Below are positions 53 through 45,839 of a DNA stretch of 45,839 bases, in pieces (the first letter of the stretch is position 1; the number at the start of each line of letters is the position of its first letter). The position numbers and the translations under genes were made by a program. The stretch is from assembly GCA_007694185.1 (NCBI GenBank), contig RECD01000119.1, forward strand, positions 1 through 45,839, written 5' to 3'. Below the pieces are notes generated by a model. That model did no database searches and was not told the DNA's origin. It worked only from the letters and a program-made list of their open reading frames with translations. Source of the DNA: Planctomycetaceae bacterium. Lineage in GTDB: Bacteria; Planctomycetota; Planctomycetia; Pirellulales; Pirellulaceae.

Positions 53-2172
53 GGATCCCCACCGTTGCCGAGTTGTAACTCAAGAGACTGCCGAACCAAC
101 CCCAAAACATATGGTAACTCGTCAAGGCTAGAGATCCCGACCTCAACGTCACCGTTCCCCCAACGGCCAATGTTCGTCACGTCCTTACATAGCCCCTTTG
201 GGTCGATCAAATCTGAAAATCGCATGTTGATCGCGAGCCTCAAACGTTTGGCTTGCGGTACAACATCTACAAAGTTCGTCTCCGCTTTAAAGGCGACATA
301 CAGTTTAAGAAACTCCTCGCTCACGCAGGGGTCGAGAGCGATTACGGCTTTTCGGAACGCTTCAAACACCGGACGCATTGTCGCTGTCAACAGGTTCGGA
401 TGATCCTCGATGGCGTATCCCGTGACCGCGTCAGACTTCCGTTGGTAAGCGTCCAGAATATCTTTAGGGAGCTTCGGCGCGAGCCAGACGCCGACTCCGA
501 TTTCAGCGAGCTTTGCGGCGCGCGCCTTGATGGTGTCCTCGTCCCACGTTTCCAGCGCACCGAGCCCCTGATTTAACCTGAGCGGACTTTGTTTCAGGCC
601 CTTTTCGGGTGCATCTGGCATATCTCGCTTTTCGGTGAAGGCGCGGTCACTGTAGTCGATATTGTAGGCGGTGAGCGTGAGATTGCCGAGCGTGTGCAGC
701 CATGTTTGTTGGATGCGCTGCCAGTCCTTTCCGAGTGCTTCCCGCCATTGGGACGAGAGATTTTCGTTCTGAGGGAGGATGTGTTCGATGGTGTATTCAT
801 CCACCGCCACGCGTTCTTTGCGTCCGTGGTTCTCCAACCGGCGCAGCCAATAGCTTCGGCTGCGGAAATTGTAGAGGTCACGGGTCTGGAAGTCCCGGCG
901 GAACTCTTCGTCCGAAGGAAATCGCCGGTATGAAGGCAGCCCGAGGAAATGCGCCTGAATGCTCTCGAAGTATCGGTCCTTCTTCAACGCCTTGGTAAAC
1001 GTGGCGAATGTTTTATTCATTGAGTTCGTAGGGATGGCGCAGATGCCGCGGCGGAAGACATACGCCTCAATGAGCCGAACGCTAGTCAGCAGATCCGCCT
1101 TCGAGAGCATGTCCGCCTTGTAGTCGTGATATAGCTCCAGCAGGAACGGGTATGCGACTTCCACCTTAAGTTCACGCAGGTCGTGGAATGCTAACTTGAG
1201 CTCGGCATCGGGTTCGCTGCCCAGCGCCATGGCGCAGAAATGGCGTGCGTAGTCGCGAATTTCGCGGACGAGGCTTTCGATGTGGCTCGTGTCATCGGCA
1301 AAGTCGACCCGTGAGGCACGCGCATGACCTTTGAACGCGTCGTAAACCGCGTTAATATTGGGAATCTCACCAGTCATCACCGTCAGGTAATGCCGCATGA
1401 AGCTATCGAAATGCGTGCCGTACGCTTCCTGACCGAAGTCGATTTCCATCGGCCTCCAGAACTGTTCGTAGAGCTTAGTTTGCAACACAGGCTCCAAGCC
1501 CATCAAGATGAAATTGCGAATGAGGTCAGCCTGGCTCAGTTCCTTGCCTGTCGAGTTCATACTCTCGAAGATGAGCTGTGGGTTGTCTTGATCGCGGGTC
1601 AGCGCGATGTCCACAACCACCAGCTTCGCCAGCCCTATGCATAAGGTCGCCAACCCAACCTTGCCTTCACCAATCCACCTCTTGAACGATTCAAAATTGG
1701 CGTTGATGCGAAGCGACGCCTGCTGCGGCGGTTCGCCATCACCCACCAGTGCTGTCAGCGTTGCCTTGTCTGTTTGCGAGAGCAGTAGCTTGAAATGTCG
1801 CTCACCCGTCTCTTCCGGGTTCACCAAGTAGTAATTCTTGATCTTCCGTTGCGAGAAACCGTCGAACGGTTCGCTTTCTGCCACCGCTTTAGCGAGGGCG
1901 GCCAATAACAGTGAAAGCGTCGTGAGGCGTTGCTGGCCGTCGATGACGAGCAGCGGCGCTTGGTGCGTTACCTGCGAGAGCCCGCTTTCAACATACACAA
2001 TCGATCCGACGAAGTGAACGGCGATCTTGTCACTACTGCCGCAGCGCACGATGTCGTCCCAAAGTTGGCGGCATTCCTTCTCCGTCCACGAGTAGGTGCG
2101 CTGGTAGATTGGGATGACGAACTGCGGCGACTTCTTCAAGAAATCAAGGAGCTTGGCTTCGGTGGCTTTCAT
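49..2172 (-). CDS. GmrSD-type DUF262/DUF1524/DUF5655 protein embedded in the type I R-M operon
   Basis: 707 aa. The N-terminal DUF262 (ParB-like NTPase) domain shows IPIYQRTYSW near residues 20-29 and the nucleotide-binding DGQQRLTTL near 78-86. A DUF1524 HNH nuclease lies around 459-505 (EHILPQ, then LGNLTLTAYN). Residues about 600-700 look like DUF5655. This is the architecture of single-chain GmrSD-like type IV enzymes and of BrxU/SspE-like defence nucleases. The start is the ATG at 2172; the upstream TTG at 2190 lies inside hsdS. GGAG in the last codons of hsdS serves as ribosome site, 4 nt separate the hsdS stop from this ATG, and its own stop overlaps hsdR. It is therefore an integral operon member, probably restricting modified or foreign DNA alongside the type I system. 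Its base composition is more AT-rich than the housekeeping genes nearby. Confidence 0.85.
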   Translation of the reverse strand: MKATEAKLLDFLKKSPQFVIPIYQRTYSWTEKECRQLWDDIVRCGSSDKIAVHFVGSIVYVESGLSQVTHQAPLLVIDGQQRLTTLSLLLAALAKAVAESEPFDGFSQRKIKNYYLVNPEETGERHFKLLLSQTDKATLTALVGDGEPPQQASLRINANFESFKRWIGEGKVGLATLCIGLAKLVVVDIALTRDQDNPQLIFESMNSTGKELSQADLIRNFILMGLEPVLQTKLYEQFWRPMEIDFGQEAYGTHFDSFMRHYLTVMTGEIPNINAVYDAFKGHARASRVDFADDTSHIESLVREIRDYARHFCAMALGSEPDAELKLAFHDLRELKVEVAYPFLLELYHDYKADMLSKADLLTSVRLIEAYVFRRGICAIPTNSMNKTFATFTKALKKDRYFESIQAHFLGLPSYRRFPSDEEFRRDFQTRDLYNFRSRSYWLRRLENHGRKERVAVDEYTIEHILPQNENLSSQWREALGKDWQRIQQTWLHTLGNLTLTAYNIDYSDRAFTEKRDMPDAPEKGLKQSPLRLNQGLGALETWDEDTIKARAAKLAEIGVGVWLAPKLPKDILDAYQRKSDAVTGYAIEDHPNLLTATMRPVFEAFRKAVIALDPCVSEEFLKLYVAFKAETNFVDVVPQAKRLRLAINMRFSDLIDPKGLCKDVTNIGRWGNGDVEVGISSLDELPYVLGLVRQSLELQLGNGGDP

Positions 2173-2176
2173 ATTT

Positions 2177-3352
2177 TCACAGTTCTCCAATAAGGGCGTG
2201 ATGCAGCAGCGATTTTTTTAACGTTGCAAGCGCCGCGAGTTTGCGGAAGTAGATAGCTTCAAGGCGTTGAGTTTCTTCGCGGAGTTCAATGAGTCTATCC
2301 ACAATTGCTTTTTGTTCGGGAATCTTTGGAAATGAAACCGGATATTTGGCGACACTTTTTGCTCCAAGATTCGGCTGAGCCGCGCCATTCTCGAATCCTT
2401 TGATGAGTCCTTTCCCGACTGGGCTGGTGAGAAAGAAATAGAGAAAGCTTCTGTCCAGAAGCGATGACGGCCGGAGTATTACCAAAGAAGAAGCGACTGC
2501 GCCCTCGATTAGTGGATCGACCAGTGCAGTTTTGCCAAGTGTTGCCCCTCTCAAACAATAGACCAAGTCACCTGATTGAATTTTGCCACTGCGGAGCGAA
2601 TCGAACTTCTCCCGAGTGATGAAATTCATCTCTTCCATCGAGAGGGTTCCGTCGGGCTGAATGTGTCCGGTATTAATCCACGGAACGCCTGTTTCAACAT
2701 ACTCGTTTCGGTTGGGATAGTTTTTGCCACGGTCACCATTCTCAAACTCGCAAACGTTCGCGAGCGATGTCTCCATCCATCCCTTGCCGCGCTGTTTGAA
2801 GACGGATTGGAGGTGGCTTTCGTAGAGGTCGCGGGCGTTTTGGATATTCGTCTCAAAGCTCGCTTCGGCGGTGGCGAGGCCCTCAAACGCTTCGTCCAGC
2901 AGGCGGATGATCCGCTGCTGTTCGGCGAGCGGGGGGAACGTGAGAGGCAGGGCTTCGATTTCGCCTTTGTTGATTGAGGCAAACACCGCGCCTTCTTTTC
3001 CGGCAATCTCAGGTTGCAGGTGTAGCAACTGGTAGAAGAGGAAATCGCGATTAAGTTGAGTCCCGCTGCGGATTGCAGCCAATCCGCGACCTATGCAGAT
3101 TTCTTCAGTAGAAAAGTTCACTGGGCCGACAGGTGCGCGGACGGACATCAAAATATCGCCTTTTTTGGCAATCCTTGTCGTCTGCGTAGTCCAAGTTGAC
3201 GGAGCATCGATGAACTTGTCACCAAAGTCTTTTTTGCCTTGATGGAACGGCAGTCCACGGCCTTCAGAATTGTAGAACTTCCCATCTGGCGATTGTCCTG
3301 CGATGACCTCGCACAAATCGCCAATCGTCTTCGTCTGCCACTCGTTTTTCAT
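2177..3352 (-). CDS. hsdS: Type I R-M specificity subunit HsdS
   Basis: 391 aa, the usual HsdS length. Two target-recognition half-repeats are visible. The first begins near residue 3 (EWQTKTIGDLCEVIAGQSPD) and ends in a conserved PLAEQQRIIRLLDEAFEGL helix near 140-160. The second begins near 190 (GWMETSLANVCEFENGD) and ends in IPEQKAIVDRLIELREETQRL near 345-365. Each half would read one part of a bipartite DNA site, and the two coiled-coil spacers dock HsdM and HsdR. The ATG at 3352 overlaps the hsdM stop (ATGA). The reading frame is intact, so a full enzyme is plausible. Codon use is noticeably AT-richer than the flanking planctomycete genes, fitting horizontal acquisition of the specificity module. 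The target sequence cannot be predicted from this. Confidence 0.93.
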   Translation of the reverse strand: MKNEWQTKTIGDLCEVIAGQSPDGKFYNSEGRGLPFHQGKKDFGDKFIDAPSTWTTQTTRIAKKGDILMSVRAPVGPVNFSTEEICIGRGLAAIRSGTQLNRDFLFYQLLHLQPEIAGKEGAVFASINKGEIEALPLTFPPLAEQQRIIRLLDEAFEGLATAEASFETNIQNARDLYESHLQSVFKQRGKGWMETSLANVCEFENGDRGKNYPNRNEYVETGVPWINTGHIQPDGTLSMEEMNFITREKFDSLRSGKIQSGDLVYCLRGATLGKTALVDPLIEGAVASSLVILRPSSLLDRSFLYFFLTSPVGKGLIKGFENGAAQPNLGAKSVAKYPVSFPKIPEQKAIVDRLIELREETQRLEAIYFRKLAALATLKKSLLHHALIGEL

Positions 3353-4809
3353 AGCAGCATCCCCCGAATCTTCCCCAACACCTCAGCACTCAGGGCATCC
3401 AGCGCGGCGATTTCGTCCAGGATTTCTTGCGGGCTGCGGTGGGCGATTTCCTCGCCGCCGTTAGGATTTTTTACTGAGAGATCAAACGTCTTCGGGTCGA
3501 TGGCCGCCACGTCGACGCTCCAGCTTTTGGGCGAGTCGGCTTTGGTCTTTTGTAGTTCGATGAACTCGCCCAAATCCGCGTCGTTGAGCGGGTTGGTCTT
3601 GCCCATTTTTCGACCGGGGTCGAGCTGGTAGAACCAGACCTTGCGTGTCTTCGTCCCTTTCTCAAAGAACAGCACCACGGTCTTCACGCCCGCGCCGATG
3701 AACGTGCCGCCGGGGCAATCGAGCACGGTGTGCAGGTTGCATTCCTCGAGCAGCTTTTGACGCAGGCTGACGGAGGCGTTGTCGGTGTTGGAGAGGAAGG
3801 TGTTCTTGATGACGATGCCGGCGCGGCCTCCGGCCTTGAGCAGCTTGATGAAGTGCTGGAGGAACAGGAACGCGGTCTCGCCGGTGCGGATGGGGAAGTT
3901 TTGCTGCACTTCCTTGCGTTCTTTGCCGCCGAAAGGCGGATTGGCGAGGATGATGTGGAAGCGGTCCTTCTCCTGCACGTCGGCGAGGTTCTCGGCGAGC
4001 GTGTTGGTGTGGATGATGTTGGGCGCTTCGATGCCGTGCAGGATCATGTTCATGATCGCGATGACGTAGGCCAGCGACTTCTTTTCCTTGCCGTAGAGGG
4101 TCCGCTCTTGCAGGGCGCGGTCCTGGGCGGTGCTCCGCTTGGGGTTCTGGGCTCGCAGGTACTCGAACGATTCACAGAGGAAGCCGGCCGAGCCGACGGC
4201 AGGGTCGCAAATGGTCTCACCGAGCTTTGGCGCGGTGACGGCGACGATGGCGCGGATCAGCGGACGCGGAGTGTAGTACTCGCCGCCGTTCCGCCCGGCG
4301 TTGCCCATGTTTTTGATCTTGGCTTCGTACAGATGCGACAACTCGTGCTTCTCGGTTTGAGAGGCGAAGCGGAGTTCGTCGATATGATCGATGATCTCGC
4401 GCAGGTTGTAGCCGCTCTGGATGCGGTTCTTGATCTCGCCGAAGATCTCGCCGATCTTGTATTCGATCGTGTTCGGGCCGGTAGCCTTGGCCTTGAAGCC
4501 GTGCAGGTAGGGGAACAGCTTGCCGTTGACGAACTGGATCAGGTCGTCGCCGGACAGGGCGGTGTTGTGGTCGATCTTGCCGTCCTTGCCCTTGGGCGCG
4601 GCCCAAGCTTCCCAGCGAAAGGGCGGGTCGAGGATGTGGCCGTATTTCTTGCCGCTCAGGGCGGCTTCGGTCGCCTTGTCGTGCTCGAGGGCATCGAGGT
4701 ATTTCAGAAACAGCAGCCAAGAGGTCTGCTCGGTGTAATCGAGTTCGCTGGTGCAGCCCGCGTCCTTCCAGAGCACGTCGTCGATGTTTTTGAACGCTTG
4801 TTCGAACAT
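3349..4809 (-). CDS. hsdM: Type I R-M DNA methyltransferase subunit HsdM
   Basis: 486 aa N6-adenine methyltransferase. The N-terminal helical HsdM domain covers about residues 1-130 (begins MFEQAFKNIDDVLWKDAG). The SAM-binding motif I DPAVGSAGF is at 202-210 and the catalytic motif IV NPPF at 290-293. The protein methylates adenine in the host target and is also the core of the restriction complex with HsdS and HsdR. The frame stays open upstream to 4950 but offers no better start, and MFEQ is the normal family start. No clear Shine-Dalgarno precedes 4809. It is the first gene of the hsdM-hsdS-GmrSD-hsdR run and overlaps hsdS by ATGA. Upstream lies a 357-bp non-coding stretch likely to carry the promoter. 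Confidence 0.95.
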   Translation of the reverse strand: MFEQAFKNIDDVLWKDAGCTSELDYTEQTSWLLFLKYLDALEHDKATEAALSGKKYGHILDPPFRWEAWAAPKGKDGKIDHNTALSGDDLIQFVNGKLFPYLHGFKAKATGPNTIEYKIGEIFGEIKNRIQSGYNLREIIDHIDELRFASQTEKHELSHLYEAKIKNMGNAGRNGGEYYTPRPLIRAIVAVTAPKLGETICDPAVGSAGFLCESFEYLRAQNPKRSTAQDRALQERTLYGKEKKSLAYVIAIMNMILHGIEAPNIIHTNTLAENLADVQEKDRFHIILANPPFGGKERKEVQQNFPIRTGETAFLFLQHFIKLLKAGGRAGIVIKNTFLSNTDNASVSLRQKLLEECNLHTVLDCPGGTFIGAGVKTVVLFFEKGTKTRKVWFYQLDPGRKMGKTNPLNDADLGEFIELQKTKADSPKSWSVDVAAIDPKTFDLSVKNPNGGEEIAHRSPQEILDEIAALDALSAEVLGKIRGMLL

Positions 4810-5166
4810 GGCAAAGCAGTAGGCGAGGACGTCGTCGGCTCGGAAATCGGGGTGAACGTCGCGGCGGAAGAGGGTGGCGTGCTCGGAGACCAGAGTCGGG
4901 TCGGAAGCGGCAAGCGCGTCGGCCGATCGACCGGCAGACGCCGCGGTCGATCAGGCGTCGCGTGCCCGACGCCCAGAACCATACCAGACCCACAAGGCGG
5001 CCACAATTTGCGGTCAGCCCCTCGCTCACGGTCGCCAGGTCGATCCCGTGGCGGGCTGAGCGGCTCACGTCTTGGGCTCGGTTTTCGGCTTTGTTCCTGA
5101 TTCGCCGGCCTTTTTTTGTGACCGTGTTGACTGCATTGACCCTATTGCCAATGCAGTCAGTTGCGT
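4810..5166. other. Intergenic region upstream of hsdM with an 11-bp inverted repeat
   Basis: 357 bp between the four-helix protein gene and hsdM. No convincing coding sequence was found on either strand; the open frames are shadows that run into hsdM. The only clear structure is the perfect inverted repeat at 5128-5138 / 5149-5159. Any hsdM promoter must lie here, but I could not pick a convincing -35/-10 pair. Confidence 0.5.
5128..5159. promoter_or_regulatory. Perfect 11-bp inverted repeat, candidate operator or attenuator
   Basis: TGACTGCATTG (5128-5138) is followed after a 10-nt spacer by CAATGCAGTCA (5149-5159). It starts just beyond the stop of the four-helix gene and about 320 bp upstream of hsdM. 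No T-run follows it on either strand in the sense needed for an intrinsic terminator: on the minus strand an A-run follows. A protein-binding operator is therefore at least as likely as a terminator. No regulator is visible. Confidence 0.4.
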
Positions 5167-5919
5167 TCATTTCGCCCTTGTCCCTTTGCAGTCCGGGAAG
5201 GCGGAACATCCCCAGAAATCGCCTTTTGCCGACTTTCGCTTACGCATGGGCTTGCCGCACTGAGGGCAGTCCGGCGTGTCCGCGGTCTGTTGCTGCTCGC
5301 GGGCCTCGATGCGTTTGGTCATCAGCCGCTCGCTGAAGCCACCGGTCTCCTCAAAGGCTCTGCCTTGCGATTCAATTTGCCGCTTCAGCATGTTCAGAAC
5401 GCGCCCGATGATGATCAGCATGGCATTGGCGACTACCACCGCGTCGTCTGCATCGAGCCAGCGGGCGTAATGGCGTCGCTGATTCCGGGCATGCTTTGCC
5501 GATTCGTGGACCATGTCGTCGGCGAAAGGGGCGGCGTCCAGCGAGATGGCGTTGACCGCTTTGGCCTCGGGCGAATGGACCGACCACGGGAGTTGCCCAC
5601 GGTCAAGAATGACAACCTCGTAGTCGCCCCGCAGTTCGCTCAGGCTCGCCCTCGCCACGTCGGTCAGCTTCATCTCCGTGTCCTTCGACGTGGAAGAGCG
5701 TTCCGAGCCTTCGATGATGTTTTGGCGCCCGCTGCGGGCCGCTTGGGTCATCTGATCATACTGCCGCCCCTTCGGGTCGTAGAACTTCGCGTCCGCTTCG
5801 CGGTGGTCGAAGGTCAGAAAACGGCGGCAGAAACGGAGCGTCTCGAGCTGCACGATCGTCGCCAGCGTGAAGGTGTGCAGTTTGCGGAACCCACCATGTT
5901 TGTCGAACAACGCGGGCAT
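5167..5919 (-). CDS. Four-helix bundle protein with C-terminal topoisomerase-type zinc finger
   Basis: 250 aa. The N-terminal half resembles the small four-helix bundle family (S23/Avd-like, 'four helix bundle suffix domain'). It shows a helix around RKLHTFTLATIVQLETLRFC (12-31), the signature RSGRQNIIEGSERSSTS near 83-99, and LTDVARASLSELRGDYE further on. The C-terminus carries a zinc ribbon with Cys 218, 221, 238 and 244 (CPQCGKPM ... GCSAFPDC), as in the C4 zinc fingers of topoisomerase I. The function of this family is not established; a nucleic-acid-binding accessory role is an inference from the zinc ribbon. It lies upstream of the type I R-M operon in the same direction but 357 bp away, so it may be a separate unit. 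It is complete, and no frameshift is seen. Confidence 0.75.
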   Translation of the reverse strand: MPALFDKHGGFRKLHTFTLATIVQLETLRFCRRFLTFDHREADAKFYDPKGRQYDQMTQAARSGRQNIIEGSERSSTSKDTEMKLTDVARASLSELRGDYEVVILDRGQLPWSVHSPEAKAVNAISLDAAPFADDMVHESAKHARNQRRHYARWLDADDAVVVANAMLIIIGRVLNMLKRQIESQGRAFEETGGFSERLMTKRIEAREQQQTADTPDCPQCGKPMRKRKSAKGDFWGCSAFPDCKGTRAK

Positions 5920-5987
5920 GATGGCCTTCCTACGGTGTGAAGGACTTGATTGGCCTCATCGATCTCATTGCTAAGATCGGCCGAAAG

Positions 5988-6725
5988 TCAGGGCTCGAAA
6001 TGGGGTTCTTCCGCAGCCGGCCAATGCGTCGGTCGGTCGACCCAATACGCCAAACGTTCGATCGGCAACCCGACGACGTTGCTTTCGCTGCCGCTTCCCC
6101 GGATCTGCAACCAATCGTTGCCGTCTTGGTATCCGAAGCCGCCCGCTTTGCCCTGCCAACGCCCGCCGGCGAGATAGGCATCGATCTGGGCATCGTCGAT
6201 CGGGCTCATTTCCAGATCGGTGCGGACCGCTTCCAGAACCCTGCGTCCACGTCCGAGGTCCCACAGGCAGATTCCTGTCAACACGTGATGCACACGGCCG
6301 CGAAGCAGCCTGAGCATCCGCCGTGCGTCCTCGGCGTCGACCGGCTTGCCCAGCAGCACGCCGTCACATACCCCCAACGTGTCGGCGGCCAACAGCACCC
6401 CGCCTCGCAATCGCCGGGCGACGTTGATCGCCTTCTGATAAGCCAATCGCCTGACGGCCTGCTCCGCCGACTCGCCCGCTCTTGGCGGGTCCTCGGCGTC
6501 GTCGTCCGGCAATTCGGTGCGATACCGACAACCGGCCGCGGTCAGCAGTTCAGCGCGTCGGGGCGAACCGCTGGCGAGGATCATCGGCTCGTCGCCAGGC
6601 AGCTTCACTCGCGGCAGACCGCGCATCAGCGGCAAGGACGATTTCTCCTGAGAACCGCCCGCGGCGGCGTGGTCCGTAACGATATCGCCCGCGAGCGGCT
6701 GATCGTTGTCGCTGCGGTCGGTCAT
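5988..6725 (-). CDS. maf: Maf-family nucleotide pyrophosphatase
   Basis: 245 aa from the ATG at 6725, which overlaps the stop of the upstream cytochrome gene (ATGA), implying coupling. The canonical Maf start motif MILASGSPRR is at residues 48-57. Further family landmarks follow: LLAADTLGVCDG, LLGKP, a VLTG segment and the GRWQGKAGGFGYQ loop near the C-terminus. Maf proteins hydrolyse non-canonical or methylated nucleoside triphosphates (dTTP/UTP/CTP types) as house-cleaning enzymes. The 47-residue N-terminal extension is unusual. Either it is real, as the coupled ATG suggests, or translation begins at Met34 or Met48 (base 6584). Gene length beyond the motif matches the family. Confidence 0.88.
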   Translation of the reverse strand: MTDRSDNDQPLAGDIVTDHAAAGGSQEKSSLPLMRGLPRVKLPGDEPMILASGSPRRAELLTAAGCRYRTELPDDDAEDPPRAGESAEQAVRRLAYQKAINVARRLRGGVLLAADTLGVCDGVLLGKPVDAEDARRMLRLLRGRVHHVLTGICLWDLGRGRRVLEAVRTDLEMSPIDDAQIDAYLAGGRWQGKAGGFGYQDGNDWLQIRGSGSESNVVGLPIERLAYWVDRPTHWPAAEEPHFEP

Positions 6726-9700
6726 TTCTGTCCCAACGGGATTTCGCCTGACAACAACCGCCACCGCTTCAGGTAGGCGATCAGGTCTCGCATCGCCGCC
6801 GGGTCGATCTGGTTCTCGAAACCCTCCGGCATCATCGAAACTCCCGTCGCCCGCAATTGCTCGATCTGGTCTCGCGGGATGGTCCGCCGCAGGCCGTCCT
6901 GCATCTTCAACACGACCGACTGCTGAGAACTGTCTTCGAGCAGCCCTTCCAGCAATTGGCCGTCGTCGGTCAACACGGCGTAACGGTAGTAGTTCGCGTC
7001 GATCGCGGCGTTGGGATCGAGGATCGACAGCAGGATTTGCTCCGGCGTTTGCGTCCGCATGTCCGAAATGTCCGGCCCGACGACGACCCCTTCGTTATCG
7101 ATGCGGTGGCACCCAGCGCACTGCTTGACGAAGACGGCCTTGCCGGCCGCCGCGTCAGCACGCCCCGCCAGAACCGATTGGTAACGACCGATCAACGCTT
7201 GTCGATCCTCGGTCGTCCTGCCGGCGCGAAGTTTCTTGACCCGATCGGCGATCGCCTTATCGCCGTGACGTTCCAACCGACCGACGGAGGTCGGGTCGAT
7301 CAGACCCCAAGGGACGCGTTGCGATTCGATCGCATCGAGCAGCGCCGAGGTCCATTTGGCGTTGCCGATCATGGCGGCGACCGTCGACGTTGCGGCTCGC
7401 GGCGGCAACTCGACCAGTCGGCTGACCAACTGTTCTCCGACTTCCGGGGCATCGAAATGCCTCAGGATTTGCAACGATTCCACGTACAACTCGTCGCCCT
7501 GTCGTTCCGCCATGCGGCGAGCCAGCTCGAGCGTTTCGGGGCTGCGATCCGATCCGACCCGTCGGAACGCGGCGACCCGCGCCGGCATCGCGACCGATTC
7601 GTCGAGCACCCGCAGTCGATCCGAAGCCAACCGTTCGGCCAACCGAGTGCGGGCCGATTCCGGCAAGTCCTTGGCAACCCGATCCCACGGGGTCGATCGG
7701 ACCGCCAGGCCGGCGGCGTATTCGGCGAACAGCGTTCCGATCGGTTCGTCGCCGGGGCCGACCGCCGTTGTGGTCCCTGCGTCGGCCGAGCTGTGCTCGA
7801 GGATCGCGGCGAGTGTCGCGGACGAACCGGCCCAACCCATCCGCTTGACCAGTGGGCCGAGTACCACCGCGGTCGAAGCCGCGTCCGTGTTTCCTTCCGC
7901 TGCCAGCTGGTTACGGATCAACTGGGGAGCGATCGATTCGGCGGTCAGCGAAACGGCGTTGGCAAGCCAAGTCCGATCGGTAGCGGAATCCTGCCGACTG
8001 GCTCGCAACAAGCCGACGAGCGAATCGAGCCAACTTTCATCCGCCCGTGCGGCCAATTCCAACAACCACTGGTAGCGAACCGAAGGAGCCGGATCGGTCG
8101 CCATTTGCCGAAGCAGCGAGGCTGCTGCCGACGACGAATCGGCGTCGTCCAACCGCCGTGCCAGCAACCGGACGGCTTGGCCGCGGACGGCAGGATCCGA
8201 CGATGCGGCCGCGACCTTCAAGTCCGCGGCTTGCAATTCCCCGTTGCTCTGCAGCAGCCACACGATCCGGATCAGGGTTTCTGATGATGCCGCCGAGCCG
8301 TCTTGGGTAGTCGACTGATGGAGCCGCTCACGCAGCGCCGCGATCAATCGGTTCGAAGTTTCCTTCGCGGCAACCGAATCACCGTCAGGCTGGTGTAACG
8401 CTTCGGCGATCCTCCGTCCGGCGGTCTTGCGCGCCCACCGGTTCTCGCTGGCGAGTGCCGGCAACCAGCGGTTGGGGTCGTCCGTGGCCAAGTCGGCCCG
8501 CGACTTGTTCGTCGATGAGGCAACGGTTGTCGCTTCCGCCTCGGCGGGAACGATCCGGTAAATTCGGCCCGCGGCGTCGCCCCAACGCATGTCCCCTCGT
8601 TCCCGCAATTCTTTCGGCATCCAAGCGGGGTGTTCGATCACGGCTCGATGCATGTCGATCACGTACATCGAACCGTCCGGTCCGTCCAACAGATCGACCG
8701 GGCGGAACCAGGGATCTCGCGACGCCAAGAACTCCATACCGGCTCGTCCACGTTCGGCGATCGGGACGATGCCGTCCGCCGTCAAGCGATACCGCTGGAC
8801 CAACGAACCGGTCGGTTCACAAGCGAAGAAGTCATCGCGCAACCATGGGGCCAACCGATCACTCTGATAGCGATAAACGCCGCATGCCGCGGTGAATTGT
8901 CCGGCGTGCAGGTTGCTGGTCGTCCAGGCGGCGACCAGCGGAAAGACTTCGCTCTTTTCCGCCGCCGGCATCACGTCGACCCGCCACTGCGCTAGCGGCA
9001 GCAACGGGTTCGCTTCGGCCTGGTTCGCCTCGGCCAGCAACAGGGTGCAGGGATTGCGGTTGCTGCAGATGAAATTGCGTCCCTGGTCGTCTTGGTAATA
9101 ACCGAACTGGGAGTTCCCGGCGACGGCTCGCCAGTCTCCGCCGAATGGCGAAAAACGAAAGTCACGAGCGGACAACGAGATCGGCTTGTCATCTCCAGTC
9201 CAACGGGCGTCCGACGATCGTACTTCCCCACCTCGCAAACCGCTGGCGACATGGATCTCGTTCTCGATCGTCCAAGTCGGGTGGTTCGCCCGCAACTGCT
9301 CGTTGTCTTTGCTGAACCCCGTGAACCAAACTTCGCGGGTGTCGCAGACGCCGTCACCGGTGGTGTCTGCCAGGTAAGCGACTTCACCCGCCAGCGTCGC
9401 GATCACGCCGTCACGAAAAGGCTGGATTCCGGTCGCGAAGACGAGCGAATCGGCGAAGACGGTCGCGGTTTCGAAGTAGCCGTCGCCGTCGTTGTCGACG
9501 AGCAACTTGATCCGCCCGTTGAAGCCTTCGCCTTCCTTCGGGCCTGTCGGGTAGTCGTTCATTTCGACCACCCATAACCGCCCGAGGTGATCGAAGGCGG
9601 CAGACACCGGATCGATCACTTGCGGCTCGCTCGCGGCCAGCTCGACCCGCAATCCCGGCAAAATCTCGAACTCGGCCAAAGCCTGTTGCGGCGACAGCGG

Positions 9701-11392: not shown

Positions 11393-12832
11393 TCATGAAG
11401 ATTCGGTGACCCGCAATTGCAGCCCGCCGAGCGCCGCGTCCCAGCCGACCACTTCCGCCACGCCGCGCCATTCCTGGCCGATCCGGCCTGCCTGATCGTC
11501 ATCCAGGTGTTCCGGGATGTACAACGTCAACGGCAGCGGCGGGTCGGCGAATCGGGCCGACACGACGTGATCACCTTGCCGCACCTCGACGCCTCGCGAG
11601 CCGCCCCGAACCGATCGGTGTCCGATCGTCGCGGTGACCTCCATCGGCAAGCCCGCGACCGCTTCGACCAACAGCGCGAGCCGCTCCGGGTCGTCACGCG
11701 ATTCCCAAATATGCCAGGCCGTTTCGGCAAACGACAGGTCGTCCCCGCTCGCCGAAATCGCCTCGGCTGGCAACCCACCGACGTGCAGATCGAAATCCTC
11801 GGCCGCCAAGCCGGTGAAGGTCCCGGCTTCGATCGCGGGCAACAAGACCGTCTCGTCATCGACCGGCGGCGCGACGAAAATCCGGATCTGACGCTGCCAA
11901 CGGATCGGCCCGGCGATGACGATTTCGGCGTCGACCGACCACACCAATTCGTGTTGCGGTTGCTTCAGCGAATAAGCGGCGAGCGGCGGGATGCGGGTCC
12001 GAAAATCGAGCCGACGCGGTTGATCGCCAGCCAGTTCCAGCGATCGTTCCGGGAACGCCAACAGCGTGCGGGCATACAATTCGGTCTCTTCCGCCCCCTC
12101 ATCTTTGTTTTTCGCTGTCCGGCAGATCTCCGTCGCCGTCAAACGCACCAACACCCGTTCGGGCCGCAGCAGCCGCCGCGGGCGGACCGTCAGATGGCCG
12201 GTCAGCCAATCCCCCGGTTGCAACCGCTGTGGGCTCAATTCGAACTCGGACCGACCGACCCGGCGTTCGGGGAACCATCGCAACAACAGCCAGGTCCCAA
12301 GCCCCAGCACGACCAGCATCGTGGGGACGATGACCATCAGCAATTTGGTGCCGAGGAACCGGAACGTGAACAACAGCGGCACCAACAGCCCCGACGCTTT
12401 GGCTAACCAGACCCCCACCGTGGCATCCTTGGTGTGGACGGGCGGCTGCCAGCCCACCGCGTCAGGGACCAACCGGATCGGGACCGTCGCGGAGGGATCA
12501 GCCGCCCAGGGGATCTCCGCGAACGCCTCGACGGCATGCTCGATCTGGAACGAATAGCCGAAATAGGCGGCTGGCCAATCGGGGGCTTCCAGCTCGAACG
12601 CAAATCGCTTCGATTCCCCCGCCTCCAGATCGCCGCTAAACAGCTTCACGACCCCGCCGACCGATTCGTCCGTCCCGTTCGGCCCGGTGGTCCGCATCAC
12701 CACCTGAGCGCGCAGCGAACGGATTCGCGTGTCCGCGTCGACGGTGACGGAAACATGGCCACGGATCGGGTGCCCCGCGCGGAATCCGCGACCGGCGTCG
12801 TCGAGTTCGATCGTCAGGTCACATCGGCTCAT
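11393..12832 (-). CDS. Membrane-anchored arrestin-like protein
   Basis: 479 aa from ATG 12832 (MSRCDLTIELD). Residues 1-125 form an arrestin/Vps26-like beta-sandwich: a raised-strand pattern with GHPIRGHVSVTVDAD, and a family-like SGDLEAGESKRFAFELEAP segment typical of bacterial arrestin-like or Spo0M-type domains. Two adjacent hydrophobic helices (about 145-163 and 164-186) are followed by basic residues. A second beta-sandwich (RLQPGDWLTGHLTVRPRRLL) follows and then a C-terminal domain. The role is unknown; such proteins are scaffolds in eukaryotes, and bacterial members are poorly understood. It lies downstream of the two ABC transporter pairs on the same strand with a 132-bp gap, so co-expression is possible but not shown. 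Confidence 0.6.
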   Translation of the reverse strand: MSRCDLTIELDDAGRGFRAGHPIRGHVSVTVDADTRIRSLRAQVVMRTTGPNGTDESVGGVVKLFSGDLEAGESKRFAFELEAPDWPAAYFGYSFQIEHAVEAFAEIPWAADPSATVPIRLVPDAVGWQPPVHTKDATVGVWLAKASGLLVPLLFTFRFLGTKLLMVIVPTMLVVLGLGTWLLLRWFPERRVGRSEFELSPQRLQPGDWLTGHLTVRPRRLLRPERVLVRLTATEICRTAKNKDEGAEETELYARTLLAFPERSLELAGDQPRRLDFRTRIPPLAAYSLKQPQHELVWSVDAEIVIAGPIRWQRQIRIFVAPPVDDETVLLPAIEAGTFTGLAAEDFDLHVGGLPAEAISASGDDLSFAETAWHIWESRDDPERLALLVEAVAGLPMEVTATIGHRSVRGGSRGVEVRQGDHVVSARFADPPLPLTLYIPEHLDDDQAGRIGQEWRGVAEVVGWDAALGGLQLRVTESS

Positions 12833-16661: not shown

Positions 16662-18158
16662 TCAATCGAGGAAATAACGCGATTCCAGACAAGCCTGGTG
16701 AGTCCGAGCGAGCGTCGCTCGCGCCGTCTGACCCGTCGCCGCGGCCGCTTCAGCCAACTTCCCTAACAGGTCGCGGTAACGCTGAATCCCGTCGCAGCCG
16801 ACGTCCCAACCCGCTCGGTAAATCAGATCGTATCGCGTTCCCATCCACTCCGCTGCGTCGGCCGCGGAGTCACCGGAATCCGCCGACGGAACCGCCCCCA
16901 AACGCGCCGCCCGTTCCAGCCAATAATCCGATACCCGATCCCGCCAACCGCCTGCTTTCGGTTCAACCTTCGAATCGACCCTCAGCCGCCGGACGTAATC
17001 CGGGTCCAAGCGGTCCGCGGCACCCAACTCAATCAGCCTCGCGACCGAAAACTTGCCGATCCGGTCGCTGTCAAAGTGAGTTCGAAACCGCACCGATTGG
17101 TCGGTGAACGACGACGCCAAGCCGCCGAGTACGTACTGGCCGATCGCCGCTTCCAGCCCGCCTTGCCGCTGCGCGTGCCAACCGAGCACGTCATGCACCC
17201 AAGCCAAATCGCCCCGTTTCGCGGCGATCCGCTCGGCGTGCCCCGCAGCCGTTTCCCAGTCCTGTGCCGGCCATTCGCCTTCGGCGATCCCCCAACGGCT
17301 CGCCAAAAATCGCCGCGTCGCCGCTGGCACCAGCTCCGCATCGAACATCCAACGGGCCACGTCCCGTTCCCAGTGCGCGTTGCAGTCCGCCGCCAACGAT
17401 TGCGTCATCCGCCGCCGAATCGGGTTGTCGAGCGCCGCCAGCATCAGGTCGCAGCGTACCGCCACCTCCGCGATCCCTTCACCCACCAACCGGTCCGCGA
17501 CCGCGGCGGCCGATCGGTCTCGATCGAACACCTCGTCGATGCCGGTTGGCAGATGAGCAAGCGCCCAGCGAACGCAACGCCGGCTTTCCAAGTTCTCCCG
17601 AACCCCGCCCCGAGGCGACTCGGCCGGGACCGCAAGCCCTCGTGAACGACCGGGAAAACGCCCGTTCAAACCGTCGTACAAGATCGCTTCGGCGAGCGTC
17701 TTGCCGAACGGCAGACAATCTCCGCCGCCGTGATACCAATGCACGACCTCACTCAGCCCGTTGTCCGGTCCGACGCGGCCACACAAGTAATCGCCCATCC
17801 CGTTGCCGACCAGCGGCAACAGGTCAGGCTGCATCAAGCCCGGCCAAATGACTTCCGGTGCCGCTTCCAACAACACCGCCGGATGGACCGAGTCGCCAAA
17901 TTCGCCCGCAGAGAGCGTCTCGCCAGCGATTCCGTCGAACCAATCCGCCCAGCCTGAGGTCAGCGTCAGCCCGTAACGGTCCGCAATCGCCGAGGACCAA
18001 CCCGCCGAAACGCTACCAATTGGATTGACAGATCGGTCCAAGGGATTGATCGGTTCGAATGCCGTGAGCAAGAAAAAGGAGTGCGGTCGGTGACACCATC
18101 GATCGGCACCATCACCCACACCCGACCAGTTTACGCCACATTCCCGTCGCCTGACCAC
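16662..18158 (-). CDS. SUKH (SMI1/KNR4)-like protein of unknown role
   Basis: Up to 498 aa. The start is uncertain: the longest frame uses GTG 18158, and a TTG at 18071 is another choice; neither has a clear ribosome site. Residues about 50-170 look like a SUKH/SMI1-KNR4 domain: an N-terminal AIADRYGLTLTSGWADWF helix, then LLPLVGNGMGDYLC, VHWYHGGGDCLPFG and a terminal helix. The C-terminal 300 residues are helix-rich (many Ala, Arg, Trp) and I do not recognise them. SUKH domains occur in immunity proteins against polymorphic toxins and in regulatory scaffolds. No toxin gene is visible here, so the immunity reading has no support beyond the fold. It lies 44 bp upstream of the ABC operon on the same strand. 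Confidence 0.55.
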   Translation of the reverse strand: MVRRRECGVNWSGVGDGADRWCHRPHSFFLLTAFEPINPLDRSVNPIGSVSAGWSSAIADRYGLTLTSGWADWFDGIAGETLSAGEFGDSVHPAVLLEAAPEVIWPGLMQPDLLPLVGNGMGDYLCGRVGPDNGLSEVVHWYHGGGDCLPFGKTLAEAILYDGLNGRFPGRSRGLAVPAESPRGGVRENLESRRCVRWALAHLPTGIDEVFDRDRSAAAVADRLVGEGIAEVAVRCDLMLAALDNPIRRRMTQSLAADCNAHWERDVARWMFDAELVPAATRRFLASRWGIAEGEWPAQDWETAAGHAERIAAKRGDLAWVHDVLGWHAQRQGGLEAAIGQYVLGGLASSFTDQSVRFRTHFDSDRIGKFSVARLIELGAADRLDPDYVRRLRVDSKVEPKAGGWRDRVSDYWLERAARLGAVPSADSGDSAADAAEWMGTRYDLIYRAGWDVGCDGIQRYRDLLGKLAEAAAATGQTARATLARTHQACLESRYFLD

Positions 18159-18359
18159 CGCCCGCCGCCGCCAAAACGAGCCGAATCCGAGGCGCCAACG
18201 CCGCCGGTTCCCGCGACAAATTCCCCACCCGTCACGTCCGGCCGACTCCTGCGAATTTCCGAACCAACAGACACAGTCCCGATGCCGTGCGCGAACCGGG
18301 CCGAACCGACGACAGATCGATCATTCCTGATCCCGGCGGGATTCAAGTCAGCAGCCGAG

Positions 18360-18450
18360 GGTCGGTCTCTGCGACCCATTCGGGGTCGAAATTTACGGTT
18401 TGTCATCCATCCCCGGGTGCGCTGCACGACCTGGGGCCAATTTCTGTCAT
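18360..18450 (-). repeat. Palindromic intergenic repeat, family A copy 1
   Basis: Read on the minus strand, this segment matches 29989-30082 read on the plus strand. A first block of about 40 bases (ACAG-AATTGGCCCC then GCAGCGCACCCGG) differs at about five positions. A last block of about 32 bases (TTCGACCCCGAA then GGGTCGCAGAG-CCGACC) differs at about three. The central 15-20 bases are diverged. The end block folds into a short hairpin CGACCC/GGGTCG. Both copies lie in gene-free gaps. Confidence 0.75.
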
Positions 18451-42799: not shown

Positions 42800-43513
42800 C
42801 TATCGCCGACGCCGCGCCAGCAGATCGGCATCGGATTCGTGATCGCGAAGCAGTTTTTCTACTCTTGCGATGGTGGCCCTGTCGTTAACCGTGATCGCGA
42901 TCACACAGATCATGGCGAGCAAGCTCAACGAAGCCCACACGCTGACGCCCCATAAGACGGACGGGCCTGAAAAAAGCGATGACACGATCCACAACAGGCC
43001 GAACAAAGACAGGAAAACCCCGCCCCTGACCGCCTTGCGCGAATTGGCCTTGCAACGGCGAATGATCCTGTCCGCCGCGAGTACGGCGTCTCCAGAACGA
43101 AGCGATTGGTGTTCGTCGTACTGCAAGTTGAACCCGATTCGCAAGTCGTCGGCTAGCGTTCCGGGAATCGAGCCCTTTTCACCGTTTTCGGCAACGTACG
43201 CGACCAAGGCGATACGCAGCGCCGTGGTTTTTACATGACGTCTCCAAAGCCAAAAAACGCAAATGGCAAAGCAGATCGCCCACAGCGTGTAGGGGCCCGC
43301 CGAAATCATGCCACGTGCAACCAAAATTGCGAACGTCGCGGCCAGCAACGCCAAAAACAACGTGAACCGCGTGCGTTTTACAACCAGTTGAGTCGCAAGC
43401 AAGCCGATGCCGTCGCCGTGCAACAGTTGATGCTGTTCATACGTGAGAGAGAATCGCTTCAACGTCCTGGCCAGCGCGTCGCGTGCATGGGTGTCAGGCG
43501 GTTCAATTTCCAT
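42800..43513 (-). CDS. Four-TM hypothetical membrane protein
   Basis: 237 aa. Two pairs of hydrophobic helices are seen: FTLFLALLAATFAILVARGM with YTLWAICFAICVFWLW (residues about 51-90), and GGVFLSLFGLLWIVSSLFSG with a VSVWASLSLLAMICVIAI stretch (about 164-210). Soluble segments lie before, between and after them, including a repeated motif: HQLLHGDGIGLLATQLVVKR near 28-47 and HQSLRSGDAVLAADRIIRRC near 133-152. The protein is thus an internal duplication of one unit. I do not recognise the family. It is flanked by repeat-filled gaps and has no operon partner. Confidence 0.7.
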   Translation of the reverse strand: MEIEPPDTHARDALARTLKRFSLTYEQHQLLHGDGIGLLATQLVVKRTRFTLFLALLAATFAILVARGMISAGPYTLWAICFAICVFWLWRRHVKTTALRIALVAYVAENGEKGSIPGTLADDLRIGFNLQYDEHQSLRSGDAVLAADRIIRRCKANSRKAVRGGVFLSLFGLLWIVSSLFSGPSVLWGVSVWASLSLLAMICVIAITVNDRATIARVEKLLRDHESDADLLARRRR

Positions 43514-43942
43514 CTCGCAGAAGCCAAAATGTCATAGTCAAATGTGTCGCCTGATGAATAAGCATTTCAACAGGTCTCCGGGCTTTGTGAGTTTATTTTC
43601 CTGGTTCCGGTGGCTTACGCCACCGGCAAGTATGTGTCGCCCTACGGGCTAAGAAAAAAGGCGGTCATTCTCGGTTCCGGCTTTACGCCACCGGCGGGCA
43701 ATCGGCTCCACAAAATTTTTTCGGAAAATTCTGGGCGAACGCCCAACGCCGGTGTCGGTTAATGCGTTCAAGTTATGCGGATTGAGACCTGCTGACGTGC
43801 TTATCTGCCGCCCTTTGGGCTCTTTTGCCGAACCGCGCCAATTATCGAGAAACGGTGCCAGTCTTGAAGTTCGGTTTCTCCAGATTGATCAGCTTTTCTG
43901 TTGGGTGATATGGCTGTCGGTGGCGCTGTTCCTGGTTTGGGG
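43514..43942. other. Gap between the four-TM gene and SUI1 gene; repeats only
   Basis: 429 bp. It has a family C repeat (43576-43650), a degenerate second piece at about 43670-43700 (TTCCGGCTTTACGCCACCGG), and a CCGCCCTTTGGGCTC palindrome near 43808-43823. No gene is supported; the short plus-strand frame at 43752-43961 is created by repeat sequence. Confidence 0.6.
43576..43650 (+). repeat. Palindromic repeat, family C copy 1
   Basis: Contains the perfect hairpin CCGGTGGC TTAC GCCACCGG and a CCGGGCT / TGTCGCCCTACGGGCT frame at its ends. Over at least 67 bases it matches 45772-45839 with about two differences, in the same orientation. Confidence 0.85.
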
Positions 43943-44284
43943 TCAGCCGCGGATTCGGTAACCGGTTTCGGAGAGCAGGCCGCGGACGCGGTCCAGGTGC
44001 TGGCCTTGGATTTCTAACTGGTCGTCCTTGATCGTTCCCCCCGCGCCGCAAGCGGCCTTGAGGCGATCGAGCAGTTTCGGCAAGTCGTTCTGCTCGGCAG
44101 GTAACCCCCGCACGACCGTCACCGACTTACCCCGCTTTCGCTTTTCGATTCCCAGCACCGCCGTCTGCTGTTCGGGCGGCGTCAAAACCTTGGCCGGTGC
44201 CGGGCACTGGCAATCCGCCTCCAATTCCCCACATCGCTCGCACCGGGGAGGGCGATCCCAAACCGTCCCCTCAAACAATCTCAT
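43943..44284 (-). CDS. yciH: SUI1-family translation factor (YciH/eIF1-like) with N-terminal Cys cluster
   Basis: 113 aa from ATG 44284, with AAGGAGG about six bases upstream, fixing the start; the longer open frame to 44530 is not used. The C-terminal SUI1/eIF1 domain covers about 45-113: KRGKSVTVVRGLPAEQNDLP, LLDRLKAACGAGGTIKDDQL and a C-terminal GYRIRG. The N-terminus contains Cys 15, 18, 25 and 27 (CERCGELEADCQC), which could bind a metal. eIF1-like bacterial proteins influence start-site fidelity on the ribosome, but most bacteria live without them. It is transcribed divergently from the GIY-YIG nuclease gene. Confidence 0.9.
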   Translation of the reverse strand: MRLFEGTVWDRPPRCERCGELEADCQCPAPAKVLTPPEQQTAVLGIEKRKRGKSVTVVRGLPAEQNDLPKLLDRLKAACGAGGTIKDDQLEIQGQHLDRVRGLLSETGYRIRG

Positions 44285-44812
44285 CTCAGCCTCCTTAATG
44301 ACCGGTCCAATTTTCCCATCCGCCCGTGAGCAAAAAACCCAATTTGCCAGTGTTCGCACGGCAAAACGCAGCCGAAACCGGCAATCTTCTGTGCCGAATA
44401 TCGGCGTGGATTCCTCGGAGTCGTCAGCCAGACCTGAGCGACCGCCGCGATCACAGCAATCGCTCGGGCGATCCCATTCTGTCGCGATCGCGACATTTCC
44501 GAAAGCGAGGTGAGATGTGCGAGTTCTCAATCGCCACCGGCCGCCGTCGTCACGGACCCACCATCGGCCCCGCCAGACCGCCCCGTCGCGGTTTTGAATC
44601 CGTTACCATGTGTGGCCAGTCACGCACGATTCGAAATACAGTCGACAGCCAAAGTGCGAATTGATCAAGACAACCCACGTCTCCGTTTACGGTTCCACCG
44701 CAAGAAAGGGTGGCCAAGCGGGCGTCGCTGGAAGGGCATTCCGACGCGAATTGAGTGAACTACGGTCACGCGGACGGAAAATCGCCTTCTATTCGAAACA
44801 ACGAGGAATCGC
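44285..44812. other. Divergent gap between SUI1 and GIY-YIG genes
   Basis: 528 bp without a confident gene. A plus-strand frame starting at ATG 44516 (GAGGTG just upstream) would give a 49-aa peptide of unlikely composition and is not called. Around 44705-44770 the sequence resembles the D-arm half of a class II tRNA but lacks a T-arm. The promoter of the GIY-YIG gene must lie in this stretch. Confidence 0.5.
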
Positions 44813-45595
44813 ATGCAGCGCCTACTGGATATCGGCTTTAAAAAAACAGCCCATTGGACCCTGGAGGGTCAGGACTTGCGGTGTGTTTTCAAAGAGCTGA
44901 AGACGCAAGAGAACGTCCTGTATGCCTTCGTGGTCGATTTAGAGGTCAAGTATATCGGGAAAACCACGCAGCAACTCCATAAGCGAATGTATGGATATGT
45001 GCGACCTGGCGAAACACAGACTACCAACGTAAAAGGCAATCGTTTGATCCGAGAGTGCTTGCAAGCCGGCGCGGCTGTGGAGGTCTACGTCTTGCCCGAC
45101 AACGGCCTGATGCATTACGGTGACTTCCATATCAATCTAGCTGCCGGCCTTGAAGACAGCCTGATCGCTATCATCAAGCCGGATTGGAACGGAGGGCAAC
45201 CCAGCCCGAGAGCTGTTGCTGCCGAGATTGAGGAGAGCGGGGTCGAAGAGAGCGATCTTGAAGAGTTGCCCGCGCCGGGGTCGTATTCCTTTGAGTTCAA
45301 GTTGCAGCCGACGTACTTTACCAAGGGCTTTTTCAACGTTGCAAAGGAACATTCCGCGAACTTTGGCGAGGACGGTCAACAGATCGAGATTTCTTGTGGC
45401 GAGTCGCTCACACCGCTTACGGGTGTGATCAACCGCCAAGCCAACGGGAATAGCACTCCCCGAATTCTCGGCGGCGCTCAGCTCCGCAATTGGATTCAAT
45501 CGGTGTTTAAAGAGGGTGATTACGTGGCGGTCGACGTTTATTCGCCCGTCAGTATCCGACTGTCCAAGAAAGGCATCTCCGGGTTCGCGGGTTGA
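44813..45595 (+). CDS. Two-domain GIY-YIG nuclease, possible stand-alone restriction enzyme
   Basis: 260 aa from ATG 44813, with GAGGA six bases upstream. The GIY-YIG domain is in residues 34-127: a LYAFVV strand in place of GIY (36-41), KYIGKTT (46-52), catalytic-type Arg58, Glu114 in GLEDSLIA, and KPDWNGG (122-128) supplying the Asn. The acidic linker EIEESGVEESDLEELPAPG (138-156) leads to a C-terminal domain (about 158-255) containing FFNVAKEHSANFGEDGQQIE and STPRILGGAQLRNWIQSVF, then GDYVAVDVYSPVSIRL. This pattern recalls the beta-barrel DNA-recognition (B3/EcoRII-N-like) domains, but that is an inference by eye. It lies between two family C repeats; no methyltransferase is next to it. 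Confidence 0.8.
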   Translation: MQRLLDIGFKKTAHWTLEGQDLRCVFKELKTQENVLYAFVVDLEVKYIGKTTQQLHKRMYGYVRPGETQTTNVKGNRLIRECLQAGAAVEVYVLPDNGLMHYGDFHINLAAGLEDSLIAIIKPDWNGGQPSPRAVAAEIEESGVEESDLEELPAPGSYSFEFKLQPTYFTKGFFNVAKEHSANFGEDGQQIEISCGESLTPLTGVINRQANGNSTPRILGGAQLRNWIQSVFKEGDYVAVDVYSPVSIRLSKKGISGFAG

Positions 45596-45771
45596 CGTGG
45601 GATGTGGACAGTTCGTGATAAGTACCTCAAGAGAGCCATATCGGAATAATCTGGTGACAGACTACGTTTGCGTCAGATGATGAGCGCAAGTCATGTGGGA
45701 AGAGACCCGTTGAATCAGTTAGATTGTGTGAATGAAAAGCATTGTCGGTATCGCTGTGATGATGTGTCGCC
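45596..45771. other. AT-richer tail after the GIY-YIG gene
   Basis: 176 bp without a gene, noticeably less GC-rich than the rest of the window and ending in the family C repeat. No terminator with a clear stem was found. Confidence 0.4.
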
Positions 45772-45839
45772 CTCCGGGCTTTGTAAGTTTATTTTTCTGG
45801 TTCCGGTGGCTTACGCCACCGGCAAGTATGTGTCGCCCT
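45772..45839 (+). repeat. Palindromic repeat, family C copy 2 (cut by window end)
   Basis: Same sequence as 43576-43650, with about two differences over the shared length, including the hairpin CCGGTGGC TTAC GCCACCGG and the trailing TGTCGCCCT at which the window stops. The two copies are direct repeats bracketing the SUI1 and GIY-YIG genes. Confidence 0.85.

Follow-up and report, generated by a model that had tools for sequence, protein, structure and literature searches.

A gene at the edge of a planctomycete contig raises the question of how a single protein, predicted to join a GIY-YIG nuclease domain to a B3 DNA-binding fold, might attack foreign DNA and spare the DNA of its own host. 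The gene lies in a stretch of 45,839 nucleotides (hereafter the window), which is one whole contig (RECD01000119.1) of a 5.78-Mb Planctomycetaceae bacterium genome assembled in 288 contigs (GCA_007694185.1). A first-pass annotation of this DNA had proposed a solitary protein with an active GIY-YIG nuclease domain and a possible B3-like domain, which would be either a modification-dependent restriction enzyme or an endonuclease of a mobile element. The explanation favored here, with moderate confidence, is that of a stand-alone, restriction-type defense nuclease that is targeted by its B3 domain, acts without a partner methyltransferase and is spread on mobile DNA.

Gene and Genomic Setting

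The open reading frame (ORF) was found at positions 44813-45595 on the plus strand, as annotated, where it starts with ATG and encodes 260 amino acids. Related proteins share 75% identity with the window protein in the same genus, 51-54% in the same family and 43-44% on plasmids and viral contigs. Comparison with the same-genus copy (L030) revealed purifying selection, with an overall dN/dS of 0.18. Judged from these sequence comparisons and from a match to a PHROG family described below, the ORF is a real gene and more than a product of chance.

The gene stands alone. Upstream of it, on the opposite strand, are a SUI1-type gene (43943-44530; PF01253) and a gene without a Pfam family above its cut-off (42800-43513), and a promoter and terminator scan returned nothing above chance. 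Its GC content is 53.6% vs. 61.4% for the window, which is in line with acquisition from elsewhere and is not proof of it. The contig stops 244 bases past the stop codon, inside a repeat, and a search with this contig end gave 52 matches in the genome, the query itself included. Up to this end at position 45839, no adjacent methyltransferase is visible beside the gene.

Two further features of the contig were observed. A short dispersed repeat with two small hairpins is present at 45722-45839 and 43576-43643, and several of its genome copies are located at contig ends. The segment 45756-45839 folds better than 200 of 200 shuffled sequences (z −3.4), while the other copy gave a z of −2.5. The repeat looks REP-like; a Y1 (RAYT-type) transposase was not found in the genome. 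At the opposite end of the contig, a restriction cluster occupies positions 49-4809 of the minus strand and comprises a GmrSD (Type IV) restriction gene (49-2190; PF03235 and PF07510), a Type I specificity gene (2177-3352; PF01420) and HsdM (3349-4809; PF02384).

The Predicted Nuclease Domain

The N-terminal domain covers residues 1-128 (44813-45196, plus strand). Residues 6-126 match PHROG_1111, annotated as “endonuclease” (E 1.2e-16), and residues 29-126 match the PDB sequence of T4 endonuclease II in phmmer (E 7e-4), while Pfam, NCBIfam and PADLOC gave no match to the window protein up to E 10. An AlphaFold2 model of the full-length protein, computed from an alignment of 21 rows, reached a pLDDT of 82.9 and a pTM of 0.49; given this whole-model pTM, the packing of the domains is not predicted. 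In VIA-align, residues 1-127 of the model were superimposed on the T4 endonuclease II structure 2wsh_D with a Z-score of 15.7 and an rmsd of 1.9 over 119 aligned residues. Lower scores were obtained for Hpy188I (Z 11.2), UvrC (8.4), CMoRE/PD-T4-3 (6.0) and Eco29kI (4.8).

Residue conservation was counted over the first 12 rows of the GIY-YIG family alignment, using for each column only the rows that hold it. Arg58 (codon 44984-44986) is identical in 10/10 rows, as are Tyr37, Tyr47 and Gly49, whereas Glu114 (45152-45154), at which phmmer sets a one-residue gap, and Asn126 (45188-45190), part of a P-x-W-N motif, are identical in all 12 GIY-YIG rows. Glu114 precedes Asn126 by 12 residues, which equals the E118-N130 spacing of T4 endonuclease II, E118 being named in the title of 2wsh and N130 being what we take to be the corresponding residue. 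Arg58, Glu114, Asn126, Tyr37 and Tyr47 are presumed to be catalytic from general knowledge of GIY-YIG enzymes and T4 endonuclease II. The window protein reads L36-Y37-A38-F39, and phenylalanine occupies the position of the third tyrosine in 10/10 rows holding it. By sequence and model, residues 1-128 are a T4 endonuclease II-type GIY-YIG nuclease domain that keeps the Arg, Glu and Asn ascribed to it in the first-pass annotation and that is predicted to cleave DNA.

The Linker and the B3 Domain

The two domains are connected by a presumably flexible linker (residues 129-156; 45197-45280, plus strand), in which pLDDT falls below 50 at residues 135-155. Relative to L030, the linker is fast-evolving, with a dN/dS of 0.62 over 25 aligned codons vs. 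0.13 in the flanking GIY-YIG part and 0.14 in the B3 part.

A strand-rich second domain containing Asn and Arg had been placed at residues 155-260, and the full-length model shows strands and helices at 158-251, with a pLDDT of 88-97 per ten-residue block over 161-250. When the domain (residues 157-253; 45281-45571, plus strand) was modeled alone, pLDDT was 91.2 and pTM 0.82. The 28 best PDB rows for this isolated model are all B3 proteins, with Z-scores from 9.7 to 6.2, and the next row, an unrelated ATPase subunit, drops to 3.3. Plant matches include At1g16640 (9.7), VAL1 (9.5), VRN1 (9.1) and FUS3 (8.8), and restriction-enzyme matches include LlaJI.R1 (9.5), BfiI (8.2), the N-terminal domain of EcoRII (8.0), NgoAVII (7.6) and UbaLAI (6.2). 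Rows without B3 in their PDB title (ARFs, VRN1, At1g16640, full-length BfiI, LlaJI.R1 and others) are here assumed to be B3 proteins. The list is a VIA re-examination of Foldseek's own matches, and a Z-score below 8 alone can, according to a warning of the tool, reflect a common arrangement of elements; the assignment is nevertheless made because of the clean fall from 6.2 to 3.3. The B3-like character suspected at first is thereby confirmed at the level of the predicted fold, from which DNA binding would follow.

Sequence searches are silent on this kinship. A PDB sequence search with a B3 profile gave no match up to E 10, and a Pfam search with nine B3-family domains up to E 1 returned three unrelated weak matches, each for one member (E 0.11-0.19). 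No convincing model of the B3 family was detected in Pfam, NCBIfam or PADLOC, for which several members were used, or in PHROGs, for which the window protein was used. Since sequence profiles are blind to the relationship, the domains form a B3 subfamily of their own at a large distance from the known ones. Divergence of this extent does not count against the predicted fold.

The DNA-contacting parts of B3 domains are referred to as N-arm and C-arm in a passage of an earlier report (PMC8398556). Their counterparts in the window protein can be mapped from strand order and topology of the model. The presumed N-arm spans residues 166-176 (45308-45340, plus strand; T-Y-x3-G-F-F-N) and is invariant in the B3 alignment, partly by construction, as residues 167-175 were the pattern of the genome search; because its columns served this purpose, N-arm invariance was not counted as a statistic. 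The presumed C-arm (residues 207-221; 45431-45475, plus strand; N-R-x-A-N-x4-P-R-I-x-G-G) lies outside the search pattern. Its mean column entropy is 1.10 bits vs. 2.17 bits elsewhere (Mann-Whitney p 1.2e-4), as determined with the N-arm pattern columns excluded and for 18 non-redundant domains, three of the 21 alignment rows having been dropped at 80% or more identity to another row. The conservation of the C-arm across phyla and architectures suggests one shared target, and if the arms read DNA, a single feature is probably read by all members of the B3 family.

Distribution and Modularity of the B3 Family

Matches to the gene were detected in seven of 147 genomes of relatives and are nearly full length in four of them, namely the own genome, G002, G076, where a stop lies inside the gene, and G078. 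The copy L011 carries an internal stop codon. Among 72,556 plasmid records, 20 match; the match spans at least 80% of the query in three of these and is confined to the nuclease part in 15. The Phaeobacter plasmid pP18_i holds the B3 part alone, and on a Massilia putida plasmid (L021) the nuclease half (12067-12468) and the B3 half (18111-18389) are separated by about 5.6 kb containing metal-efflux genes and IS5 transposases.

A genome scan with the B3 part identified 17 loci, all on contigs whose titles denote bacterial genomes. Eight of these encode GIY-YIG plus B3 proteins (L030-L037), of which L034 is cut by a contig end and L033 has a broken nuclease part. In five loci B3 stands alone (L040, L042, L043, L044, and L046), and in two it is joined to extra parts without a known family (L038 and L045). 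The remaining architectures are a fusion to HSDR_N in L039 (PF04313; E 1.5e-5, 25.3 bits vs. a cut-off of 25.1) and, in L041, to a Swt1-like HEPN domain (PF18731; E 4.7e-14). Judging by these sequence matches, the family of about 100 amino acids is modular and occurs joined to a GIY-YIG domain, an HsdR-N nuclease or a Swt1-type HEPN domain, or alone. The Variovorax copy (L031) has an extra C-terminal stretch of about 150 amino acids (6274-6729) without a Pfam family.

B3 profile searches matched two of 392 genomes of the phylum, the own genome included, one of 385 in the class of G540 (G540 itself) and four of 295 in the family of G535, three of them already known. In view of these few matched genomes, the family is regarded as rare. 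A tree of 25 B3 domains, in which most inner branches are weak, assigned 13 of the 15 GIY-YIG-linked domains to one side with weak support (83/62) and united all eight domains that stand alone or have a partner of unknown family (85/83). The window gene is joined first by L030 and then by Variovorax, and not by L012, a member of its own family, which suggests horizontal transfer within the limits of these mostly weak inner branches.

Mobile Carriage and Neighboring Genes

Alignment searches revealed four IMG/VR contigs with GIY-YIG plus B3 genes, one of which is as long as the Variovorax contig of L031; a viral-contig scan with the window protein alone gave no relative, and the matches were obtained with family alignments as query. 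On one viral contig, the gene (L028) is located in P2-like phage DNA between P2 gpA (PF05840; E 1.8e-127) and portal and terminase genes. In P2-like phages of E. coli, the stretch from gpA to gpQ is a hotspot for anti-phage genes, according to a passage in Rousset et al. (PMC9122126). The gene L029, on another viral contig, is found near tail-sheath and gpD-type genes. A blastn search with L028 against 5,426 E. coli genomes gave no match.

These viral copies bear on the idea of a phage takeover nuclease, in which a mobile element would degrade host or rival DNA in the manner of T4 endonuclease II and the B3 domain would add a degenerate preference. The IMG/VR contigs are consistent with such a role, as is the fact that T4 endonuclease II is the closest relative in fold and sequence. 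Against it, only one of 50,697 phage records was matched (E up to 1e-5), by an endonuclease II and in the nuclease part only, while the B3 part of L028 had no match in the same records; L028 occupies an accessory position, and the contigs of the 17 B3 loci are bacterial genome contigs by title. Takeover is the least probable of the readings considered here. In a Foldseek comparison of the B3 model with viral predicted structures, none was recovered at E ≤ 0.001, the best being A0A646QVF9 (E 9.7e-3, probability 1.00, TM 0.54).

Several B3 genes are found near restriction-type genes, in a locus-by-locus description that covers the eight tree members with a lone B3 domain or a partner of unknown family and is set against no background rate. 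In L044, a weakly Mrr_cat-like ORF (E 0.044) follows the B3 gene at a distance of 11 bases, and a full Mrr is nearby. L045 encodes a 346-amino-acid protein (2426-3466) with an N-terminal B3 domain and about 250 amino acids without a known family; its gene is convergent to a Type ISP restriction-modification enzyme (3675-8591) and directly follows a HIRAN gene. L046 has an Eco57I-type methylase in its vicinity, as well as an ORF with weak similarity to HEPN AbiU2 (E 0.066), and L038 is near an HNH_2 gene. In a PADLOC search with 10 family proteins up to E 1, the matches were confined to L036, at E 0.1, and to the HsdR-N part of L039. Many copies are located outside a recognizable defense island, among them the window gene beside its SUI1-type neighbor, L030 between housekeeping-type genes and L040 among metabolic-type genes. 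For L040 and the plasmid locus L020, no restriction-type neighbor was seen by eye or annotation.

In two Robiginitomaculum genomes, a GIY-YIG-like gene is followed by a B3 gene at a distance of about 170-300 bases. In L042, a small GIY-YIG gene (2579-2914; PF01541, E 7e-17) lies upstream of the B3 gene (3087-3398) on the same strand, and the B3 gene of L043 (5986-6288) follows a GIY-YIG-like ORF (5344-5679), likewise on the same strand, in an arrangement resembling that of L042. These pairs are possibly a split version of the same GIY-YIG/B3 idea with a different GIY-YIG subtype.

Three copies (L019, L020, and L032) are located beside resolvases or transposases, a setting that fits selfish DNA as well as defense. 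Together with the copies on plasmids and viral contigs, the sporadic distribution and the GIY-YIG fold itself, which is a classical homing fold, these neighbors would agree with a selfish homing-type endonuclease that spreads its own gene by cutting empty sites. An unsystematic view of the loci showed no intron, intein or shared insertion site, and the flanks of the window gene differ from those of the same-genus copy L030. Furthermore, the nuclease domain belongs to the endonuclease II type, and the B3 part is also found with no nuclease at all or fused to HsdR-N and HEPN. A homing role is therefore considered very improbable. The presence of copies on plasmids and in P2-like phage DNA, together with the fusion of B3 to other nuclease or toxin-type domains, instead argues for restriction-type defense. 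The choice between the two functions originally offered is thereby decided in part: a restriction-type enzyme, with or without modification dependence, is favored over a mobile-element endonuclease.

Proposed Mode of Action and Protection of Self DNA

As a restriction-type defense nuclease, the protein would grip one fixed feature of duplex DNA with the two reading loops of its B3 domain (residues 157-253), and the endonuclease II-type GIY-YIG head (residues 1-128), held on a flexible linker, would cut the gripped DNA by means of the usual GIY-YIG residues Tyr37, Tyr47, Arg58, Glu114, and Asn126 and a metal ion. No partner methyltransferase would be required, and the gene, serving against phages or other invaders, would travel on plasmids, on phages and on further mobile DNA.

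The composition of the host DNA constrains such an activity. A 440-kb sample of host DNA, made up of the window and 20 further stretches, lacks no 4-mer or 5-mer and only two 6-mers, both AT-rich (expected 4.5 and 1.6). In 80 kb from three plasmids with family genes, CCTAGG is the sole missing 6-mer, and the two sets have no missing word of 4 to 6 bases in common. Consequently, an enzyme that is active at all times and recognizes 4-5 unmodified bases, or nearly any 6, would cut its own chromosome unless this were protected, and self DNA must either lack the target or have it hidden or modified.

The absence of a linked methyltransferase, which formed part of the original proposal, holds for the window up to the contig end and for the neighbors of nine loci, in which a crude motif scan found no methyltransferase motif; it does not extend to the plasmid copy L018, where an annotated DNA methylase is located about 0.5 kb away in divergent orientation. 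Elsewhere in the host genome, eight methyltransferase matches score above their cut-off (three N6_Mtase, two N6_N4_Mtase, one C5, and two D12), one of them at the far end of the same contig as the nuclease gene, and these could protect host DNA.

Both the host enzymes and the methylase near L018 would suit a Type II-like enzyme, whose B3 domain reads 5-6 bp of unmodified sequence, as in BfiI and EcoRII, and whose host is guarded by an unlinked methyltransferase, or whose cutting needs several sites or a phage signal. Such specificity has precedents in EcoRII, BfiI, UbaLAI, and LlaJI.R1, which we take to be sequence-specific B3 nucleases, and in NgoAVII, for which it is documented in the literature. 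The crude motif scan of the nine loci and the lack of any missing 4-mer or 5-mer in the host DNA speak against it, and identical reading loops across phyla would demand the same protecting enzyme in each host. A sequence-specific enzyme of this kind is thus rather unlikely.

Within the favored reading of a solitary defense nuclease, the recognized feature is most likely a base modification of invading DNA, an option that ranks first and is still held tentatively, at somewhat under even chances. It is followed by a plain sequence whose cutting is restrained by conditional, multi-site activation and then by protection through an unlinked methylase. We know of no earlier case of a modification-sensing B3 domain, and the characterized B3 nucleases known to us all read plain sequence. 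A wider, more doubtful proposal is that the B3 subfamily, with its motifs T-Y-x3-G-F-F-N and N-R-x-A-N-x4-P-R-I-x-G-G, might be an undescribed, shared targeting module of bacterial defense, which would read one fixed non-self feature, probably a modified base, and be plugged into endonuclease II-type GIY-YIG, HsdR-N, Swt1-HEPN or separate partners.

The apparent methylase independence of the enzyme bears on how a single protein may tell self from foreign DNA. If it senses modification, the protein would be a novel type of reader that might be of use as a tool enzyme. A small B3 family that is missed by the domain libraries searched is combined with at least three effector types.

Comparison With Known Systems

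T4 endonuclease II (DenA; PHROG_1111; 2wsh) has the same GIY-YIG subtype and the same Arg, Glu and Asn as the window protein. Enzymes of its type consist of a single domain, whereas the window protein differs by the added B3 domain at residues 157-253. In the part of the literature cited here, T4 endonuclease II is described as a phage enzyme that degrades bacterial DNA and spares modified T4 DNA (PMC1564403). Unlike this phage-borne enzyme, members of the window gene family reside in bacteria, on plasmids and in P2-like phage DNA.

The GIY-YIG Type II restriction endonucleases Hpy188I and Eco29kI have the fold in common with the window protein. They read DNA through additions to the nuclease fold other than B3 and are part of restriction-modification pairs.

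CMoRE/PD-T4-3 (9U75, 9U7U, and 9U7Z) is likewise a single protein with an N-terminal GIY-YIG domain and a C-terminal DNA-sensing domain that acts without a methyltransferase. Passages of its description report a UvrC-like GIY-YIG domain with a GIYxY-YIG motif and a C-terminal domain that had no known homologs (PMC12923530). The third tyrosine of CMoRE corresponds to Phe39 in the window protein, of which only residues 23-128 aligned with 9u7z (Z 6.0). CMoRE/PD-T4-3 is a plausible functional analog by this domain layout and the nearest in presumed mode of action among the systems compared. Membership of the window protein in this group was considered and rejected, as the third tyrosine is missing and the C-terminal fold is B3; the two may still work alike.

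B3 domains are DNA readers of plant transcription factors and, in bacteria, of a handful of restriction enzymes, whose catalytic parts are of non-GIY-YIG types. BfiI, NgoAVII/CglI, EcoRII, UbaLAI, and LlaJI.R1 share with the window protein a B3 recognition domain joined to a nuclease or to its partner. They differ from it in the catalytic fold, and for the window family no linked methyltransferase was seen beyond the case of L018 described above. For CglI/NgoAVII, the site GCCGC, and for BfiI, R.CglI, and R.NgoAVII, a PLD catalytic part are given in sections of two studies (PMC4267653; PMC4081073). No published GIY-YIG plus B3 enzyme was found in an open-access library; in passages of papers with both terms, such as PMC4081073, the two stand in separate contexts. 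The GIY-YIG/B3 protein is a new combination of known modules, which adds a nuclease type to the list of B3-guided enzymes.
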